Source of the DNA: Endobacter medicaginis
GTDB taxonomy: Bacteria > Pseudomonadota > Alphaproteobacteria > Acetobacterales > Acetobacteraceae
Assembly (NCBI RefSeq): GCF_014192375.1
Contig: NZ_JACHXV010000003.1
Span: 62,001 to 126,000, forward strand
DNA length: 64,000 bases
Direction of reading: 5' to 3'
Shown here: positions 47,714-62,031 of the stretch, one piece after another
Layout of the letters: each line of letters begins with the position of its first letter
Numbering within the stretch: the stretch's first letter is position 1
The notes under the pieces: generated by a model
What the model was told of the DNA's origin: nothing
What the model saw: only the letters and a program-made list of their open reading frames with translations
The model's database searches: none
Position numbers and translations under genes: made by a program

Positions 47714-48994
47714 GTGGACGACACGCAGGCAACGACCGCGACGCAGGCCTCCCGCCTCGCGCCAATCCTGACCATCGGCGCGATCTTCTTCGTGCTCGGC
47801 TTCGTCACCTGGCTCAACGGCCCGCTGATCACCTTCGTCCGGCTCGCCTTCCAGCTCGGCGATGTCGGCGCCTTCGCGGTGCCCCTGGTGTTCTACATCT
47901 CGTATTTCGTCTTCGCGCTGCCCTCGGCTGCGGTGCTGCGGCTGACCGGGCTCAAGGGCGGCATCTCGCTCGGGCTGCTGGTGATCGCGGCCGGGGTGGC
48001 GATGTTCGGCGAATGCGCGACCTGGCGCGACTATCCGGGCGCGCTCGCCGGGCTGTTCGTCACCGGCGGCGGCCTCGCGCTGCTGCAGACGGCGGTCAAT
48101 CCCTACGTCTCGATCCTCGGGCCGATCGAGGGCGCGGCACGGCGCATCGCGCTGATGGGCATCTGCAACAAGACCGCCGGCATCCTCGCGCCGATCGCGC
48201 TCAACCTGCTGGCGCTGCGCGATATCGGCGCGCTGGCCCGGCGCGTCGCCGCCGCTCCCGATGAGGGCGCGCGCGATGCGATCCTGTCGGCCTTCGCCGC
48301 CGGGGTGAGCCATTTCTACCAGCTGATGGCGGCGCTGCTGGTGGTTGCGGCTGTGCTGATCCCGCGCTCGCCTCTGCCGGCGCTCGACCCCGGGCAAGTC
48401 AACGCGGGGCGCGCCGACACCGGCGGTGCGGGCGGTCTTGCCGTGCCGCGGTTCTGGTTCGGCGTGGCGGCGCTGTTCGTCTATGTGGGTGCGGAGGTGA
48501 TGGCCGGCGACGCGATCGGCACCTACGGCCAGGCCTTCGGCCTGCCGCTCGACCAGACCAAGTTCTTCACCTCGTTCACCCTGGCGGCGATGCTGCTCGG
48601 CTATCTGTGCGGTCTCGCCCTGGTGCCGCGCGTGCTGTCGCAGGCGGCCTATCTCGCCGCCTCCGCGGGGCTCGGCGTGGTGCTCACGCTGGCCGCCTGG
48701 GCGAGCACGGGCACCTTGTCGGTGCTGTTCGTCGCGGCGCTCGGCTTCGCCAATGCGATGATGTGGCCGGCGATCTTCCCGCTCGCCATCAGCGGGCTCG
48801 GCGCGGCCACGGCGCGCGGGTCGGCGATCCTGGTGATGGGCATCTGCGGCGGCGCAATCATTCCGCAGGCCTTCGCCTGGGCGAAACAGACCCACGACAT
48901 GCAGGTGGTGTTCGCCGCCCTGATGGTCCCGAGCTACCTCGTCATCCTCGCCTTCGCCCTGTTCGCCTCCCGGCGCCTCACCAGCGCAAGATGA
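47714..48994 (+). CDS. FHS-type sugar MFS transporter (FucP/GluP-like)
   Basis: A 426-residue, 12-helix transporter of the fucose/galactose/glucose:H+ symporter family. Key segments are FFVLGFVTWLNGPLITFVRLAFQL near the start (read in parts), GLALLQTAVNPYVSILGP, MGICNKTAGILAPIALNL, and MGICGGAIIPQAFAWAKQTHD near the end. The start is GTG 47714 with GGGAGAC upstream. It is the last gene of the carbohydrate operon and would bring in the monosaccharide released by the glycosidases, probably galactose. Its 3' end overlaps the convergent nrsF gene by 17 bases. Confidence 0.91.
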   Translation: MDDTQATTATQASRLAPILTIGAIFFVLGFVTWLNGPLITFVRLAFQLGDVGAFAVPLVFYISYFVFALPSAAVLRLTGLKGGISLGLLVIAAGVAMFGECATWRDYPGALAGLFVTGGGLALLQTAVNPYVSILGPIEGAARRIALMGICNKTAGILAPIALNLLALRDIGALARRVAAAPDEGARDAILSAFAAGVSHFYQLMAALLVVAAVLIPRSPLPALDPGQVNAGRADTGGAGGLAVPRFWFGVAALFVYVGAEVMAGDAIGTYGQAFGLPLDQTKFFTSFTLAAMLLGYLCGLALVPRVLSQAAYLAASAGLGVVLTLAAWASTGTLSVLFVAALGFANAMMWPAIFPLAISGLGAATARGSAILVMGICGGAIIPQAFAWAKQTHDMQVVFAALMVPSYLVILAFALFASRRLTSAR

Positions 48995-49646
48995 GCGGCA
49001 GCAGCAGCCGGCTGCCGATTGTGACGATCCCGAACGCGACACCATACCAGACCGCCAGATAGAGCGGGTCGTCGAACGGGCAGGCGAAGGCGAAGGCGAG
49101 CGCCCCCCAGCCGGAGGCCGAGATCCCGGCCGCCCAGGCGCTGCCGGCCAGGTCCACGCTCGCGCCGCGGCGCATCAGCACCCCGAGCGCGATCGCCACC
49201 GGCACCGCCAGCTCGACGATGGTGCGCGTACAGCGCAGCCCGCTCTGCGGTGCCAGCCGCCGCCACAGCGTCTCGCCGCCCGTCAGCCACGCGGTCTGCG
49301 CCGCATCCACCCCCCAGCCGGCGACCAGTACCGCCAGCACCGTGAGCACGATCACCCGCAGCCCGAGCCGCGGCGAGCGCGTCGGGTCGAGCGACAGCAG
49401 CGCGGTCGTCGAGCTGATCGCGATGATCGCCGTCAGCCCGGCCAGCTTCCACCAGAAGCTCGGCATGCCCATCGCATGCGGCATGTCGATCCGCATGTGG
49501 CCGGCACCGAGCAGCAGCGCGAGCTCGACACCGAACAAGGCGCCCAGCACCGCCATCTCCAGCCACGGGCGGCGACGTCGCACCGGCCGCAGACTGCCGG
49601 CCAGACGTTCGATCAGGAGGTCGTCCGGCCGGATTTCACTCGACAT
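48978..49646 (-). CDS. nrsF: NrsF/DUF1109-family membrane anti-sigma factor
   Basis: A 222-residue integral membrane protein with about six helices, the NrsF layout. A short cytoplasmic N-end (IRPDDLLIERLAGSLRPVRRRRP) could bind the sigma factor. It has just two cysteines, C139 (SGLRCTR) and C189 (FACPFDDPLY), 50 residues apart, the spacing I recall for the two functional cysteines of Caulobacter NrsF. In that system the membrane anti-sigma frees SigF under oxidative or heavy-metal stress. Its start overlaps the sigma gene by 11 bases. Confidence 0.9.
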   Translation of the reverse strand: MSSEIRPDDLLIERLAGSLRPVRRRRPWLEMAVLGALFGVELALLLGAGHMRIDMPHAMGMPSFWWKLAGLTAIIAISSTTALLSLDPTRSPRLGLRVIVLTVLAVLVAGWGVDAAQTAWLTGGETLWRRLAPQSGLRCTRTIVELAVPVAIALGVLMRRGASVDLAGSAWAAGISASGWGALAFAFACPFDDPLYLAVWYGVAFGIVTIGSRLLLPLILRW

Positions 49647-50166
49647 CGGCCTGCTCCCTCACCATCCGTCCCAACCGGGCGAGGCCCCGGTGGATGTTCA
49701 CCTTCACCAGCGATTCGCTCTGCCCGGTCCGCATCGCCGCCTCCTCGATGCTGAACCCCTGCAGCTTGACCAGGCGGATCGCCTCCGCCTGCGCCGGACG
49801 CAGATGCGCCAGCAGACGTTCGAGCGCGTGCGCCGAGGTGACCTGTTCCTCGTGCCCCTCGACCGCGACATCGTCGTCGAGGAGCTCGGTCGGCGCGCTG
49901 CGCAGATGGCGCAGCCGGTCGATCCACTTGTAGCGCGCGATCGCCGCCAGCCACGGCCCGAACGGCCGTTCGGGCGCATAGGTGTGGCGCTTGAGATGCA
50001 CGGCGAGCAGCGTGTCCTGAACCGCGTCGTCGATCATCCCGGGCGGCAGGCGGCGGGCAAAGTAGCGCCGCAGCCAGGCCGACGCCTCCGACAGCACGCG
50101 CCGGTAGGCCTGCGCGTCGCCGGCCTGCGCGGCGGCCATCCAGATGCTCCAGTCGGCCTCGGTCAT
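49636..50166 (-). CDS. sigF: ECF sigma factor, SigF-like
   Basis: A 176-residue ECF sigma factor. Region 2 (about 20-85) contains LPPGMIDDAVQDTLLAVHLKRHTY and PFGPWLAAIARYKWIDRLR, read in parts. Region 4 (about 115-170) has HLRPAQAEAIRLVKLQGFSIEEAA and SESLVKVNIHRGLARL. No extra domains. It overlaps nrsF by 11 bases and lies 18 bases after msrA, so sigma, anti-sigma and both reductases are one operon. The promoter pair upstream of msrB fits the SigF consensus, implying positive autoregulation. Confidence 0.92.
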   Translation of the reverse strand: MTEADWSIWMAAAQAGDAQAYRRVLSEASAWLRRYFARRLPPGMIDDAVQDTLLAVHLKRHTYAPERPFGPWLAAIARYKWIDRLRHLRSAPTELLDDDVAVEGHEEQVTSAHALERLLAHLRPAQAEAIRLVKLQGFSIEEAAMRTGQSESLVKVNIHRGLARLGRMVREQADVE

Positions 50167-50184
50167 GCGGGCGGGTGCGGGCGT

Positions 50185-50919
50185 TCAGCCCCCCATCTGC
50201 TGCGCGAGCACCGGCCGCTCCCGGTAGAGCTGCGGATAGATCGTCCGCAGGGCGGCGAGGCGCGGGGCGTCATAGGTCTCGATATAGGCGTTGCCGGGGT
50301 GCAGGGCAGCGAAATTCTGGTGGTAGCCCTCGGCGGCGTAGAAGCCGTGATCGGGCGCGATCTGCGTCGCGATCGGCCGGGCGAAGACATGGGCGGCGTC
50401 GAGCTGGGCGATATAGGCCCGCGCCGTCTGCGCCTGGGCCGGGTCGCGGGTGAACAGTATCGAGCGATACTGCGATCCCTCGTCGGGAAACTGGCCGTCG
50501 GTCTGGGTCGGGTCGAGGGCCACCGAGAAGAACACCTGCAGCAGGCGCCCATAGCCGATCCTCGTCGGATCATAGACCACCTCGACCGATTCCGCGTGGC
50601 CGGTGGTGCCGGAGCCGACGGTCTCGTACTGCGCATCGGCCCGCGTGCCGCCATCGTAGCCGGCCGTGGTGGCGATCACCCCGTCGAGATGCTGGAAGAT
50701 GCTCTGCACGCCCCAGAAGCACCCCCCCGCGAACACCGCCGAGGCGCGGTGCGTGCCGGTGGCCGCCGGCTCCATCAGCGCGGGGGCGGGCAGGTGCAGC
50801 GGATGGCCCGATGACTCGGACAGCGTCTCGGCGCGCACCACGGCGGCGGTTCCGGCGAGCAGGGCGAGCGCGATGGCGGTGCCGCGAGCAGCGCGCAGCA
50901 GGGGAGAGCGGTCGGTCAT
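50185..50919 (-). CDS. msrA: Exported peptide methionine-(S)-S-oxide reductase
   Basis: A 244-residue MsrA with a cleavable signal peptide (AARGTAIALALLAGTAAVVRA), so it should work in the periplasm. The active-site motif is AGGCFWGVQ (C67), with TTAGYDGG, TTGHAESVEVVYDP and YHQNF as further hallmarks. C67 is the only cysteine in the whole protein. Typical MsrA enzymes have one or two extra C-terminal resolving cysteines, so this one must be reset by an outside thiol. It is 23 bases downstream of msrB. Confidence 0.95.
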   Translation of the reverse strand: MTDRSPLLRAARGTAIALALLAGTAAVVRAETLSESSGHPLHLPAPALMEPAATGTHRASAVFAGGCFWGVQSIFQHLDGVIATTAGYDGGTRADAQYETVGSGTTGHAESVEVVYDPTRIGYGRLLQVFFSVALDPTQTDGQFPDEGSQYRSILFTRDPAQAQTARAYIAQLDAAHVFARPIATQIAPDHGFYAAEGYHQNFAALHPGNAYIETYDAPRLAALRTIYPQLYRERPVLAQQMGG

Positions 50920-50942
50920 GGCGATGGCTCCGAAAAAGGGGT

Positions 50943-51437
50943 TCAGGCCGGGGTGAAACCGAGGGCGGCGCCGTTCATGCAGTAACGAAGCCCGGTGGGT
51001 CGGGGGCCGTCATCGAACAGATGGCCGAGATGACCGCCGCAATGCGCGCAGTGGATCTCGGTGCGCTGCATGCCGAACGTAGGGTCGTCGGCCTGCTGCA
51101 CGGCCTGCGGCAGGGCCTCGAAGAAGCTCGGCCAGCCGGTGCCGCTGTCGTATTTTGCGTGGCTGTCGAACAGCGCCTGCGTGCAGCCGGCACAGGTGAA
51201 GCGGCCGCTGCGATGCTCGTCGAGCAGCGGCGAGGAGAACGGTGCCTCGGTGGCCGCGTCACGCAGCACCGCATATTGGCGCGGGGTCAGCCGGCGATGC
51301 CATTCGGCATCGCTCAGCGTCAGCGCGAAGGCCGGGGTCGCGGCGCGGGGCGTGTGCGGCAGGACACGGGCGACGAGGGCCGCTGCGGCGGCAACGAGGC
51401 CGGACCGGCAGAGCGTCCGGCGGGTGGCGGTGTGCAT
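50943..51437 (-). CDS. msrB: Exported peptide methionine-(R)-S-oxide reductase
   Basis: A 164-residue MsrB with a Tat-like signal peptide (TRRTLCRSGLVAAAAALVARV). The zinc cysteines are C82/C85 (CAGC) and C130/C133 (CAHC), and the catalytic C153 is in LRYCMNGAAL. The position that holds the resolving Cys in many MsrB proteins (SGCGWPS) is Thr here (SGTGWPS). Like the neighbouring MsrA it therefore appears to lack an internal resolving cysteine. It is the first gene of msrB-msrA-sigF-nrsF, downstream of a SigF-type promoter at 51482-51507. Confidence 0.94.
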   Translation of the reverse strand: MHTATRRTLCRSGLVAAAAALVARVLPHTPRAATPAFALTLSDAEWHRRLTPRQYAVLRDAATEAPFSSPLLDEHRSGRFTCAGCTQALFDSHAKYDSGTGWPSFFEALPQAVQQADDPTFGMQRTEIHCAHCGGHLGHLFDDGPRPTGLRYCMNGAALGFTPA

Positions 51438-51481
51438 GGAGTTCGTCTCCGGCGGGCCTCATCGCCCGCTCTGGACAGTCA

Positions 51482-51507
51482 TTCGCGCCGGGCGGAGCGG
51501 CGGTTAC
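51482..51507 (-). promoter_or_regulatory. SigF-type promoter for the msrB-msrA-sigF-nrsF operon
   Basis: On the minus strand: GTAACC (51507-51502), exactly 16 bases, then CGAA (51485-51482). The -10 box lies 44 bases before the msrB ATG. This is the form I recall for Caulobacter SigF promoters. A second promoter of the same design faces the other way 40 bases further on, which makes chance unlikely. Confidence 0.8.
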
Positions 51508-51547
51508 AGCCGCGCAGAACTTCCCGCCCCCGGGCGACGTTCGCCGT

Positions 51548-51573
51548 GTAACCCGCAAGGCAGGCGGGTCGAA
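51548..51573 (+). promoter_or_regulatory. SigF-type promoter for the methionine-rich protein gene
   Basis: GTAACC (51548-51553), a 16-base spacer, then CGAA (51570-51573), 36 bases before the ATG at 51610. The boxes and spacing are identical to those of the divergent msrB promoter, while the spacers differ, so the conserved boxes are not the product of a local duplication. This places the methionine-rich gene in the same stress regulon as the reductases. Confidence 0.8.
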
Positions 51574-51609
51574 GATCGTGATGTCAGCAACACGTGACGG
51601 AGAGATGAG

Positions 51610-52002
51610 ATGTCCATTCGCAAGATGATGACGGCCGGGCTGTGTACCGCGCTGGTCGCCGCCGGTTCCGGCACCGCGCTCGCCCAGCAGGCGACGCCGA
51701 CCCAGCCCGGCACCCCGTCGACGATGGCGCCCTCGACCATGGCACCCTCGACCATGGCACCGTCGACGACCACCCCCTCGACCATGGCGCCGACGAAGAT
51801 GGCGCCCGGCACCTCAGGCACGATGGCGCCGCCCGCCACCGGCGATTCGATGTCGAAGGGCACGATGACGCCCGACAGCATGGGCAGCATGTCGAAGCAT
51901 TCCGGCATGGGCATGAAACATCACGGCAAGATGAAGGGCAGCATGGCCAAGCCCGACACCACCATGTCGCCGTCCGGCACTGCGGCCTCGCCGCAGCAGT
52001 AA
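51610..52002 (+). CDS. Small exported methionine-rich protein
   Basis: A 130-residue protein. The signal peptide is about 26 residues (MSIRKMMTAGLCTALVAAGS, then GTALAQ). The mature part, about 104 residues, has 15 methionines, no aromatic residues and no cysteine. It begins with repeats of the type STMAP (four copies, plus STTTP and TKMAP). It then turns to Met-Ser/Lys-His-Gly segments (SKHSGMGMKHHGKMKGSM), which might bind a metal. It looks disordered. A SigF-type promoter precedes it, and MsrB/MsrA are divergent, so it is a likely sacrificial methionine pool reset by those enzymes. That function is inference. Confidence 0.85.
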   Translation: MSIRKMMTAGLCTALVAAGSGTALAQQATPTQPGTPSTMAPSTMAPSTMAPSTTTPSTMAPTKMAPGTSGTMAPPATGDSMSKGTMTPDSMGSMSKHSGMGMKHHGKMKGSMAKPDTTMSPSGTAASPQQ

Positions 52003-52016
52003 GCCGCGCCGGCAAC

Positions 52017-52053
52017 AAAAAGCCCCGGTCGCTCGCGCGGCCGGGGCTTTTTT
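52017..52053. terminator. Bidirectional Rho-independent terminator
   Basis: Arms AAAAAGCCCCGG (52017-52028) and CCGGGGCTTTTT (52041-52052) with a 12-base loop and further T. A-run on one side and T-run on the other let it work in both directions. It sits between the methionine-rich gene (plus) and the convergent hydrolase (minus). It is the clearest intrinsic terminator in the window. Confidence 0.92.
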
Positions 52054-52073
52054 CGTCGGATGAAGTCTGCCGG

Positions 52074-52745
52074 TCAGTCGGCGGCGAGTGCGAGGGCGGC
52101 GGATTTCGCCGCCATCTTCTTGGTGACGTGGTCTTCGAGCGCCTCGGACACCGAATCGGCGTGATTGGCGAAGATGTGGTCCGCACCGGCGAACACCCGG
52201 TAGTCGACGGTGACGTTCTTCTGGGTGTTGAGCTTCTCGACCAGCTTGCGGATGGCGGGCTCGGCGGCCAGCTCGTCATTGTCGCCGGCCACCATCAGCC
52301 CACCGCACGGGCAGGGAGCGAGGAAGCCGAAGTCAAAATACCCGGCCGGCGGGGCGACCGAGATCCAGCCCGAGATCTCCGGCCGGCGCATCAGCAGCTG
52401 CATGCCGACGAAGGCGCCGAACGAATAGCCGGCGATCCACAGCCCGGAGCTGTTCGGATTGACCATCTGCATCCAGTCCAGCGCGCCGGCCGCGTCCGCG
52501 ATCTCGCCGATGCCGCCGTCATACTTGCCCTGGCTGCGCCCCACCCCGCGGAAATTGAAGCGCATCACCGAGAAGCCGAGCTTCTCGAAGCTGCGATACA
52601 TCGCATAGGTGATGCGGTTGTTCATCGTCCCGCCATGCAGCGGGTGCGGATGCAGGACCAGGGCGAGGGGAGCGTTGCTCTGCTTGGAGTGGTGATAACG
52701 ACCTTCGAGCCGGCCATCGGGACCGGCGAACATCACCTCGGGCAT
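52074..52745 (-). CDS. Alpha/beta hydrolase, COG2945-like
   Basis: A 223-residue cytosolic alpha/beta hydrolase. Conserved segments are LVLHPHPLHGGTMNN (the HPHP-GGTM signature), MRFNFRGVGRSQG, the nucleophile elbow GYSFGA (S108), VAGDNDELA with the acid, and GADHIFANH with the His. The family is widespread in Alphaproteobacteria and is without a settled substrate. The C-terminal tail is Ala/Lys-rich. The stop is about 20 bases from the shared terminator. Confidence 0.87.
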   Translation of the reverse strand: MPEVMFAGPDGRLEGRYHHSKQSNAPLALVLHPHPLHGGTMNNRITYAMYRSFEKLGFSVMRFNFRGVGRSQGKYDGGIGEIADAAGALDWMQMVNPNSSGLWIAGYSFGAFVGMQLLMRRPEISGWISVAPPAGYFDFGFLAPCPCGGLMVAGDNDELAAEPAIRKLVEKLNTQKNVTVDYRVFAGADHIFANHADSVSEALEDHVTKKMAAKSAALALAAD

Positions 52746-60883: not shown

Positions 60884-62031
60884 ACGGCGCCGTGCCGGAC
60901 ACCATCGCGGCCATCGTGCTGCCGCAGCGCGAGCGCTACGAGAGCGCGGCGGCGGGCGCGATCGCGCTCCAGGTCAGCCGGCTGGCCGGCCCGCAGGACT
61001 GGGTGCTCGGCACGAAGGTCGACGGCGAGGCGCTGCCCGGCGGACGCTTCGTGCCGGTCACCCTGCGCGGCTTCGGGCTGACCCCGGCCGCGCGCTATGC
61101 GCATGCGGTGGCACGCACGCTGCGCCGGCTGCCGCGCCCACCGGCCTGCATCGAGGTGCACAACCGGCCCGAGATCGCGCTGCATCTCGCCCGCCTGCTG
61201 GGGCGGCAGTTCCCGGGCCGCCTGGCGCTGTTCCTGCACAACGACCCGCAATCGATGCGCCGGGCCGACACGCCGCGTGCGCGCGCGGCCCTGCTGCGGC
61301 GCATGGCGGTGGTGTGCGTGTCGGACTGGCTGCGCGGGCGCTTCGTCGAGGGGCTGGCGGCGGATGCGCCGGTCGCGGTGCTGCATAACGGGCTCGATCC
61401 CGCCGCCCTGCCCGCCTCGCTGCCGGTCGATGCGCGCGACCCCGTGCTGCTGTTCGTCGGGCGCACGGTGGCCGACAAGGGCGCGGACGTGTTCGTCGAG
61501 GCCTGCGCGCGCGCGCTGCCGGAGCTGCCGGGCTGGCGCGCGGCGATGCTGGGCGCCGACGGGTTCGGGGCCGGGGCGAAACAGACACCTTTCATGGCCT
61601 GGCTGCGCGACGCCGCCCCGCGCGCCGGCGTGGAACTGCTCGGCTACCGTCCGCACGACGCGACCCTGGCCGAGATCGCCCGTGCCGCGGTGGTGGCGGT
61701 GCCGAGCCGCTGGCCGGAACCGTTCGGACTGACCGCGCTCGAAGCACTGGCCTGCGGGGCGCCGCTGGTGGCGAGTGCCACCGGCGGCATGGCGGAGATC
61801 GTCGGCGGCGGCGAGGTGGACGGCGCGCTGCTGGTCGCGCCGGGCGATGCGGCCGCCCTCGCGGCTGCCCTGCTGCGGCTGGCCCGCGATCCGGATCTGC
61901 GCGCCCGGCTGCAGGTCGCAGGGCTGGCCCGCGCGCAACACTTCCACATCCGCCGCCACCGTGCGGCGCTGGTCAGGCTGCGCGACAGCCTGTATGGCTC
62001 GGCCAGATCCTGGTCGGTAGGAACATATTGA
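60880..62031 (+). CDS. GT4-family glycosyltransferase
   Basis: A 383-residue GT-B enzyme. The N-domain holds LFLHNDPQSMRRADTPRARA and VVCVSDWLRGRFVEG. The C-domain has VLLFVGRTVADKGADVFVEA, LLGYRPHDATLAEIARAAVV and the donor-binding PSRWPEPFGLTALEALACGAP (the EPFG-x3-E motif), then SATGGMAEIVGGGEVDGALL. The start is GTG 60880, overlapping the GST stop. With the O-antigen-ligase-like gene downstream and GT2 upstream it suggests synthesis of a surface polysaccharide. The sugar and acceptor are unknown. Confidence 0.9.
   Translation: MNGAVPDTIAAIVLPQRERYESAAAGAIALQVSRLAGPQDWVLGTKVDGEALPGGRFVPVTLRGFGLTPAARYAHAVARTLRRLPRPPACIEVHNRPEIALHLARLLGRQFPGRLALFLHNDPQSMRRADTPRARAALLRRMAVVCVSDWLRGRFVEGLAADAPVAVLHNGLDPAALPASLPVDARDPVLLFVGRTVADKGADVFVEACARALPELPGWRAAMLGADGFGAGAKQTPFMAWLRDAAPRAGVELLGYRPHDATLAEIARAAVVAVPSRWPEPFGLTALEALACGAPLVASATGGMAEIVGGGEVDGALLVAPGDAAALAAALLRLARDPDLRARLQVAGLARAQHFHIRRHRAALVRLRDSLYGSARSWSVGTY

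Follow-up and report, generated by a model that had tools for sequence, protein, structure and literature searches.

We examined a 64,000-nucleotide stretch of the Endobacter medicaginis genome (contig NZ_JACHXV010000003.1, forward-strand positions 62,001 to 126,000; hereafter, the window) for a gene group at window positions 48978-52002, in which an earlier note had proposed a self-contained defence against methionine oxidation under the sigma factor SigF and its anti-sigma factor NrsF. Coordinates and family matches confirmed the five genes that it described, namely one operon transcribed as msrB-msrA-sigF-nrsF and a divergent gene for a methionine-rich protein. On the minus strand, msrB (50943-51437; TIGR00357, 159.6 bits against a family cut-off of 113.05) and msrA (50185-50919; TIGR00401, 155.6 bits against 108.1) encode predicted exported peptide-methionine (R)-S-oxide and (S)-S-oxide reductases. 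They are followed by sigF (49636-50166), for a sigma factor of the extracytoplasmic function (ECF) class (Sigma70 r2, 1.3e-9; r4_2, 8.1e-12), and nrsF (48978-49646; Pfam NrsF PF06532, 7.1e-33), for a predicted membrane anti-sigma factor. The operon is tight: the first two intergenic distances are 23 nt and 18 nt, and sigF and nrsF overlap by 11 nt. The methionine-rich open reading frame (51610-52002, plus strand) is separated from msrB by 172 bp.

This gap contains two exact copies of TGTAACC-N16-CGAA in opposite directions, where 2.4e-5 would be expected from base composition; the motif of Caulobacter SigF is GTAACC-N16-CGAA (PMC3511200). One copy (51482-51508, minus strand) lies 44 nt from the msrB start, and the other (51547-51573, plus strand) lies 36 nt ahead of the start codon of the methionine-rich gene. 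The entire 3.63-Mb genome contains three exact sites (0.5 expected), two of them in this gap. Single-mismatch sites do not exceed background (9 in the whole genome compared with 11 in a reversed control), and only exact sites were therefore used. Thus, co-regulation of all five genes, as claimed previously, is likely, with SigF probably driving both divergent promoters. In Gluconacetobacter and other relatives, isolated exact motifs (L222-L225) have no common target downstream and look like chance occurrences.

The assignment of the regulatory pair to SigF and NrsF, of the ECF16 type, also held. The ECF sigma gene is followed directly by the NrsF gene, an exact motif precedes the operon that contains both, and SigF is 65-73% identical to its counterparts in relatives. 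NrsF C139 and C189 are invariant in our alignment (A1) and lie 50 residues apart, matching the spacing of the Caulobacter sensor cysteines C131 and C181 (PMC3511200).

The methionine-rich protein and predicted exported reductases

Of the 105 residues in the mature methionine-rich protein, 15 (14%) are methionine, and F, W, Y, I, L and V are all absent. Among the other window genes, methionine content has a median of 2.0% and a maximum of 5.1%. The protein has MAPST repeats and a C terminus rich in methionine, histidine and lysine. Methionine pairs spaced five residues apart occur 5 times compared with 1.9 in shuffled sequences (p 0.024). AlphaFold2 predicted no secondary structure and assigned a predicted local distance difference test score below 70 to every residue. 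Homologues occupy the same position in relatives, one of which (syntenic locus L034) was matched by tBLASTn at E 5e-10. In three syntenic relatives the protein matches TIGR02953 (MXKDX), the class of Brucella BcrX (PMC8315932), with 72.9, 53.5 and 63.2 bits against a cut-off of 41 (E 1e-14 to 1e-20). The window copy aligns with these MXKDX proteins at 28-45% identity over a repetitive sequence. Methionine positions are conserved while the residues between them vary (MAPST compared with MSHDA), which favours a function in thioether chemistry.

Export was judged by eye, from a Sec-like leader on MsrA and on the methionine-rich protein and a twin-arginine (Tat-like RR) leader on MsrB; in relatives, the MsrB leader reads SRRQF. 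On this basis the predicted export of both reductases stands, as does the candidacy of the disordered, methionine-rich protein as their substrate. The latter appears to be the positional orthologue of the MXKDX proteins and, in its composition, disorder, proximity to sigF and putative leader, has the traits of the MrpX/BcrX type.

The window MsrA has a single cysteine, the invariant C67, and the same lone cysteine (GCFWG) was found in all SigF-linked MsrA proteins surveyed. MsrB carries SGTGWPSF and has no recycling cysteine, as is the case for all SigF-linked MsrB sequences with a readable loop (SGTGWPS; alignment A4). We rejected this absence as a special trait of the exported enzyme, as the second MsrB of the genome (SGSGWPS) lacks the cysteine as well. 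The second MsrA has extra cysteines; the single-cysteine MsrA is therefore the distinctive trait. Single-cysteine Msr enzymes require a different reductant route. No SigF-linked thiol donor was recognized in the clusters, and two DsbD-type proteins are encoded elsewhere in the genome.

Downstream of the methionine-rich gene, a probable intrinsic terminator was read by eye (52018-52055, plus strand; AAAAAGCCCCGG...CCGGGGCTTTTTT). An alpha/beta hydrolase gene (52074-52745) converges on the methionine-rich gene from about 70 bp away and shares this terminator-like hairpin.

A molybdoenzyme-cytochrome pair probably in the same regulon

The third exact motif of the genome (G000:C1:450883-450909) lies 66 nt upstream of an operon (L028:3977-6015) encoding a predicted secreted protein of no known family (DUFx), a PF01292 cytochrome b (cytB) and an Oxidored_molyb protein, the molybdenum subunit (mox). 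Taking one further exact site among 7.25 million strand positions as given, simple arithmetic puts the probability of its lying by chance no more than 200 nt ahead of any of three molybdenum genes at roughly 1 in 10,000. The five genes thus do not form the self-contained system that had been proposed, since the genome carries a molybdoenzyme-cytochrome pair elsewhere, behind its only other exact SigF motif.

The molybdenum subunit has an RR leader with a lipobox-like LLSGC at its end. Its closest solved structure by sequence is Escherichia coli YedY/MsrP (1xdq), and Foldseek returned 1xdy and 1xdq as top matches for the model of a relative's subunit, a model of modest confidence covering the core only. 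The molybdenum-ligand cysteine, C136, is invariant in alignment A6, and the Endobacter copy aligns with RCVEAW of YedY. The SigF-linked cytochrome b belongs to the Ni/Fe-hydrogenase/formate-dehydrogenase type. Elsewhere, the genome encodes a true MsrP (381 bits), and the 3.5 kb examined around its gene yielded no SigF-type motif.

DUFx itself (L028:3977-4636) is the first gene of the operon and encodes a secreted protein of 219 residues with three SMTNG-type repeats and no confident family. Of 100 genomes of relatives, 23 have homologues, and some of these adjoin cytB-mox. A different small secreted protein, X145 (L033:5283-5720 and homologues), occupies a DUFx-like slot with cytB-mox in Acidisphaera, Acidisoma and other genomes.

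Using a SigF-based scan of named genomes and a survey of gene order, we identified a seven-gene cluster in related bacteria. Here, the methionine-rich gene (metR), a cytB-mox unit and an msrB-msrA-sigF-nrsF operon each follow a SigF-type site, three sites in total. The cluster was found in 15 named species: six of Asaia, Swaminathania salitolerans, Acidomonas methanolica, Gluconacetobacter dulcium, G. sacchari, G. diazotrophicus, Ameyamaea, Acetobacter sacchari, Brytella and Tanticharoenia. In Brytella acorum, the molybdenum gene (L056:7213-7960) lies in two frames, indicating either a pseudogene or a sequencing error, and msrBA-sigF-nrsF is retained. Kozakia baliensis additionally carries the complete cluster on the 177-kb plasmid pKB14400_3 (L231, record 69701-74001), with glutathione S-transferase genes just downstream; given this location, the Kozakia cluster can probably move between strains. 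In a metagenome-assembled genome of Lysobacterales, a 118-residue methionine-rich reading frame (L107:11199-11581) carries a SigF-type motif at its start, and a related sigma gene and an MsrB lie nearby, which suggests a similar arrangement in gammaproteobacteria.

Locally, the window has the seven-gene cluster without cytB-mox. In Nguyenibacter (L046) and genome G411, mox and most of cytB have likewise been lost locally, leaving a cytB remnant, and both genomes retain cytB-mox together with MsrB in a second SigF cluster (L215 and L152). Similarly, Acidisoma L85 has msrAB-sigF-nrsF at one locus (L045) and sigF-nrsF-cytB-mox at another (L217). Every examined genome with SigF-linked msrAB also has the cytB-molybdoenzyme pair, and in genomes with the split form the pair lies near its own SigF-type motif.

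These distributions bear directly on the earlier proposal that MsrA and MsrB have taken over the role of a molybdenum reductase. The local presence of five genes alone, and the equivalent loss in Nguyenibacter and G411, would fit such a substitution. However, full clusters contain both msrAB and cytB-mox behind promoters of the same type, in the 15 species and in Kozakia, and the three genomes that lost the local copy keep the pair elsewhere behind a SigF motif. We therefore regard replacement as very unlikely and unsupported. Instead, MsrA and MsrB probably supplement the molybdenum enzyme.

Comparison with known systems

Several described systems share parts of this arrangement. SigF/NrsF, a methionine-rich exported peptide and a YedY-type molybdenum reductase occur in Azospira suillum and perchlorate-reduction islands, where SigF/NrsF-YedYZ-MrpX is described as scavenging hypochlorite, and exported MsrA and MsrB were already noted beside sigF, nrsF, mrpX and yedYZ in two of the islands (as outlined in PMC4623255). 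In contrast, the molybdenum subunit here, a short lipoprotein resembling MsrP, has a PF01292 cytochrome b as its partner and is unlinked in Endobacter. A connection to chlorate or chlorite was rejected, chlorite dismutase being absent from the five genomes tested. The Brucella BcrS-AbcS/BcrXQP system, which responds to hypochlorous acid (HOCl), likewise combines an ECF16 sigma factor, an NrsF-family anti-sigma factor, divergent TGTAACC..CGAA promoters, an MXKDX protein and a methionine sulfoxide reductase, but uses MsrPQ in an operon without MsrA or MsrB (PMC8315932).

In Bradyrhizobium, the ECF16 factor EcfF and its NrsF-like anti-sigma factor OsrA control three peptide-methionine sulfoxide reductase genes. 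That regulon differs in its scattered targets, induction by peroxide and promoter spacing of 14-15, and no methionine-rich partner is described in the portion of the report drawn on here (PMC3420878). Caulobacter SigF/NrsF has the same motif and the same two NrsF cysteines, and its regulon includes MsrPQ (CC2748); its main targets are DUF2282/DUF692 (bufferin-type) operons, and msrA lies outside the regulon (PMC3511200, PMC8224329). Finally, the molybdoenzyme-cytochrome pair resembles nSor, a novel sulfoxide-Q oxidoreductase of Acidocella (also Acetobacteraceae), in its description and in the adjacency of an MsrP-like molybdoenzyme gene to a formate-dehydrogenase-like cytochrome b gene (published record OYV43951; PMC10715153). 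The nSor account, in the sections consulted, gives no regulatory context, whereas here the pair has SigF-type promoters like those of msrAB and the MXKDX gene. As far as our searches show, the new elements are the conserved Acetobacteraceae cluster, the link between nSor, SigF and MXKDX proteins, the split form in Endobacter and the single-cysteine exported MsrA.

Proposed methionine buffering and alternative explanations

We favour, at a probability of roughly 0.6, an ECF16-type SigF/NrsF envelope-stress regulon that buffers oxidation with methionine, in which MsrA, MsrB and the molybdoenzyme pair together recycle the pool. As a predicted regulon, a methionine-oxidation defence is well supported by gene content, promoter motifs and synteny. 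By analogy with Caulobacter and Bradyrhizobium, NrsF would keep SigF at the inner membrane until an oxidant or metal attacks the periplasmic face of NrsF, at C139 and C189, and releases the sigma factor. Free SigF would then fire the divergent promoters, yielding a disordered periplasmic protein whose thioethers could take up oxidant, a sink role that we infer from MrpX and BcrX. Exported MsrA and MsrB would reduce the S and R sulfoxides with thiols, while the unlinked operon, through its own exact motif, would supply the nSor-type pair of MsrP-like molybdenum lipoprotein and b-type cytochrome, which most probably works as a quinol-fed methionine sulfoxide reductase. Thiol-fed and quinone-fed enzymes would thus jointly recycle the methionine pool. 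A more specific version, in which nSor serves an acetic-acid-bacterial SigF regulon, sometimes plasmid-borne, as its quinol-fed methionine sulfoxide reductase and recycles the MXKDX sink with single-cysteine exported MsrA and Tat-exported MsrB, is put forward tentatively, at somewhat less than even odds.

Several observations weigh against methionine buffering. The window's methionine-rich protein has no match to TIGR02953 and none to any family at E 0.1. MsrP is the best NCBIfam model for the molybdenum subunit, but the score of 84.1 bits falls far below the equivalog cut-off of 207, and the partner is a PF01292 cytochrome b561 rather than the ferric-reductase-like MsrQ. The DUFx-type cytB-mox operons of most relatives lack a SigF motif, so that SigF control was rejected as a general rule for them; the tree did not place the Endobacter molybdenum subunit inside the SigF-cluster clade, and its membership there is unsupported. 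SigF control of the pair in this genome accordingly rests on one exact motif. As for the signal, Caulobacter SigF responds to copper, chromium and cadmium rather than to reactive oxygen species (PMC3511200, PMC8224329).

That response lends weight to a serious rival, which we nevertheless consider unlikely overall, namely buffering of the soft metals copper or silver. Here, the methionine- and histidine-rich protein would bind envelope Cu(I), the NrsF cysteines would sense metal and the Msr enzymes would keep methionine ligands reduced. The Caulobacter SigF regulon, including MsrPQ, is copper-induced and a sigF mutant is copper-sensitive (PMC8224329); E. coli MsrPQ, too, is copper-induced and repairs methionine ligands of CusF, as presented in PMC9302797. 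The relatives' proteins are MxHDxM-like and histidine-rich, and the window copy ends in KHSGMGMKHHGKM. However, the N-terminal repeat of the window protein is mostly MAPST, without histidine or aspartate, the annotation next to the Kozakia cluster shows neither a copper exporter nor an oxidase, and the close MXKDX-peptide precedents were tested for HOCl (PMC8315932). The CusF example indicates that copper and oxidant roles can coexist.

Slightly less probable still is general envelope repair, with MsrA, MsrB and nSor mainly mending ordinary periplasmic proteins and the methionine-rich protein a minor target or unrelated. Haemophilus MsrAB and E. coli MsrPQ are described as repairing envelope proteins (PMC9404787 and PMC9302797, each as far as drawn on here), and some related clusters (L060, L071 and L082) have cytB-mox without the methionine-rich gene; yet a SigF motif of its own precedes this gene, which stays in position in nearly all msrAB clusters found. 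We consider it improbable that the SigF-linked pair is a sulfite-dehydrogenase-like sulfur-compound oxidase feeding quinone and unrelated to methionine recycling. The molybdenum subunit does belong to the sulfite oxidase fold superfamily, the cytochrome is of the hydrogenase/formate-dehydrogenase type and quinone reduction was the guess of the nSor authors (in the parts of PMC10715153 used), a further point against a quinol-fed reductase. Nevertheless, the best sequence and fold match is YedY/MsrP, and the constant neighbours are msrA, msrB and the MXKDX gene behind promoters of a shared type.

Methionine buffering by this regulon would carry the MrpX/BcrX sink concept into a bacterial family with industrial, plant-associated and insect-associated members. 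Gene order and promoters suggest that thiol-fed MsrA and MsrB and a quinone-linked molybdenum enzyme probably act in one response. The uncharacterized nSor pair thereby acquires a specific role that can be tested, and a defined question arises over the periplasmic reductant of the single-cysteine exported MsrA. With the complete cluster present in culturable Gluconacetobacter diazotrophicus PA1 5, Asaia and Kozakia, these predictions can be tested there.

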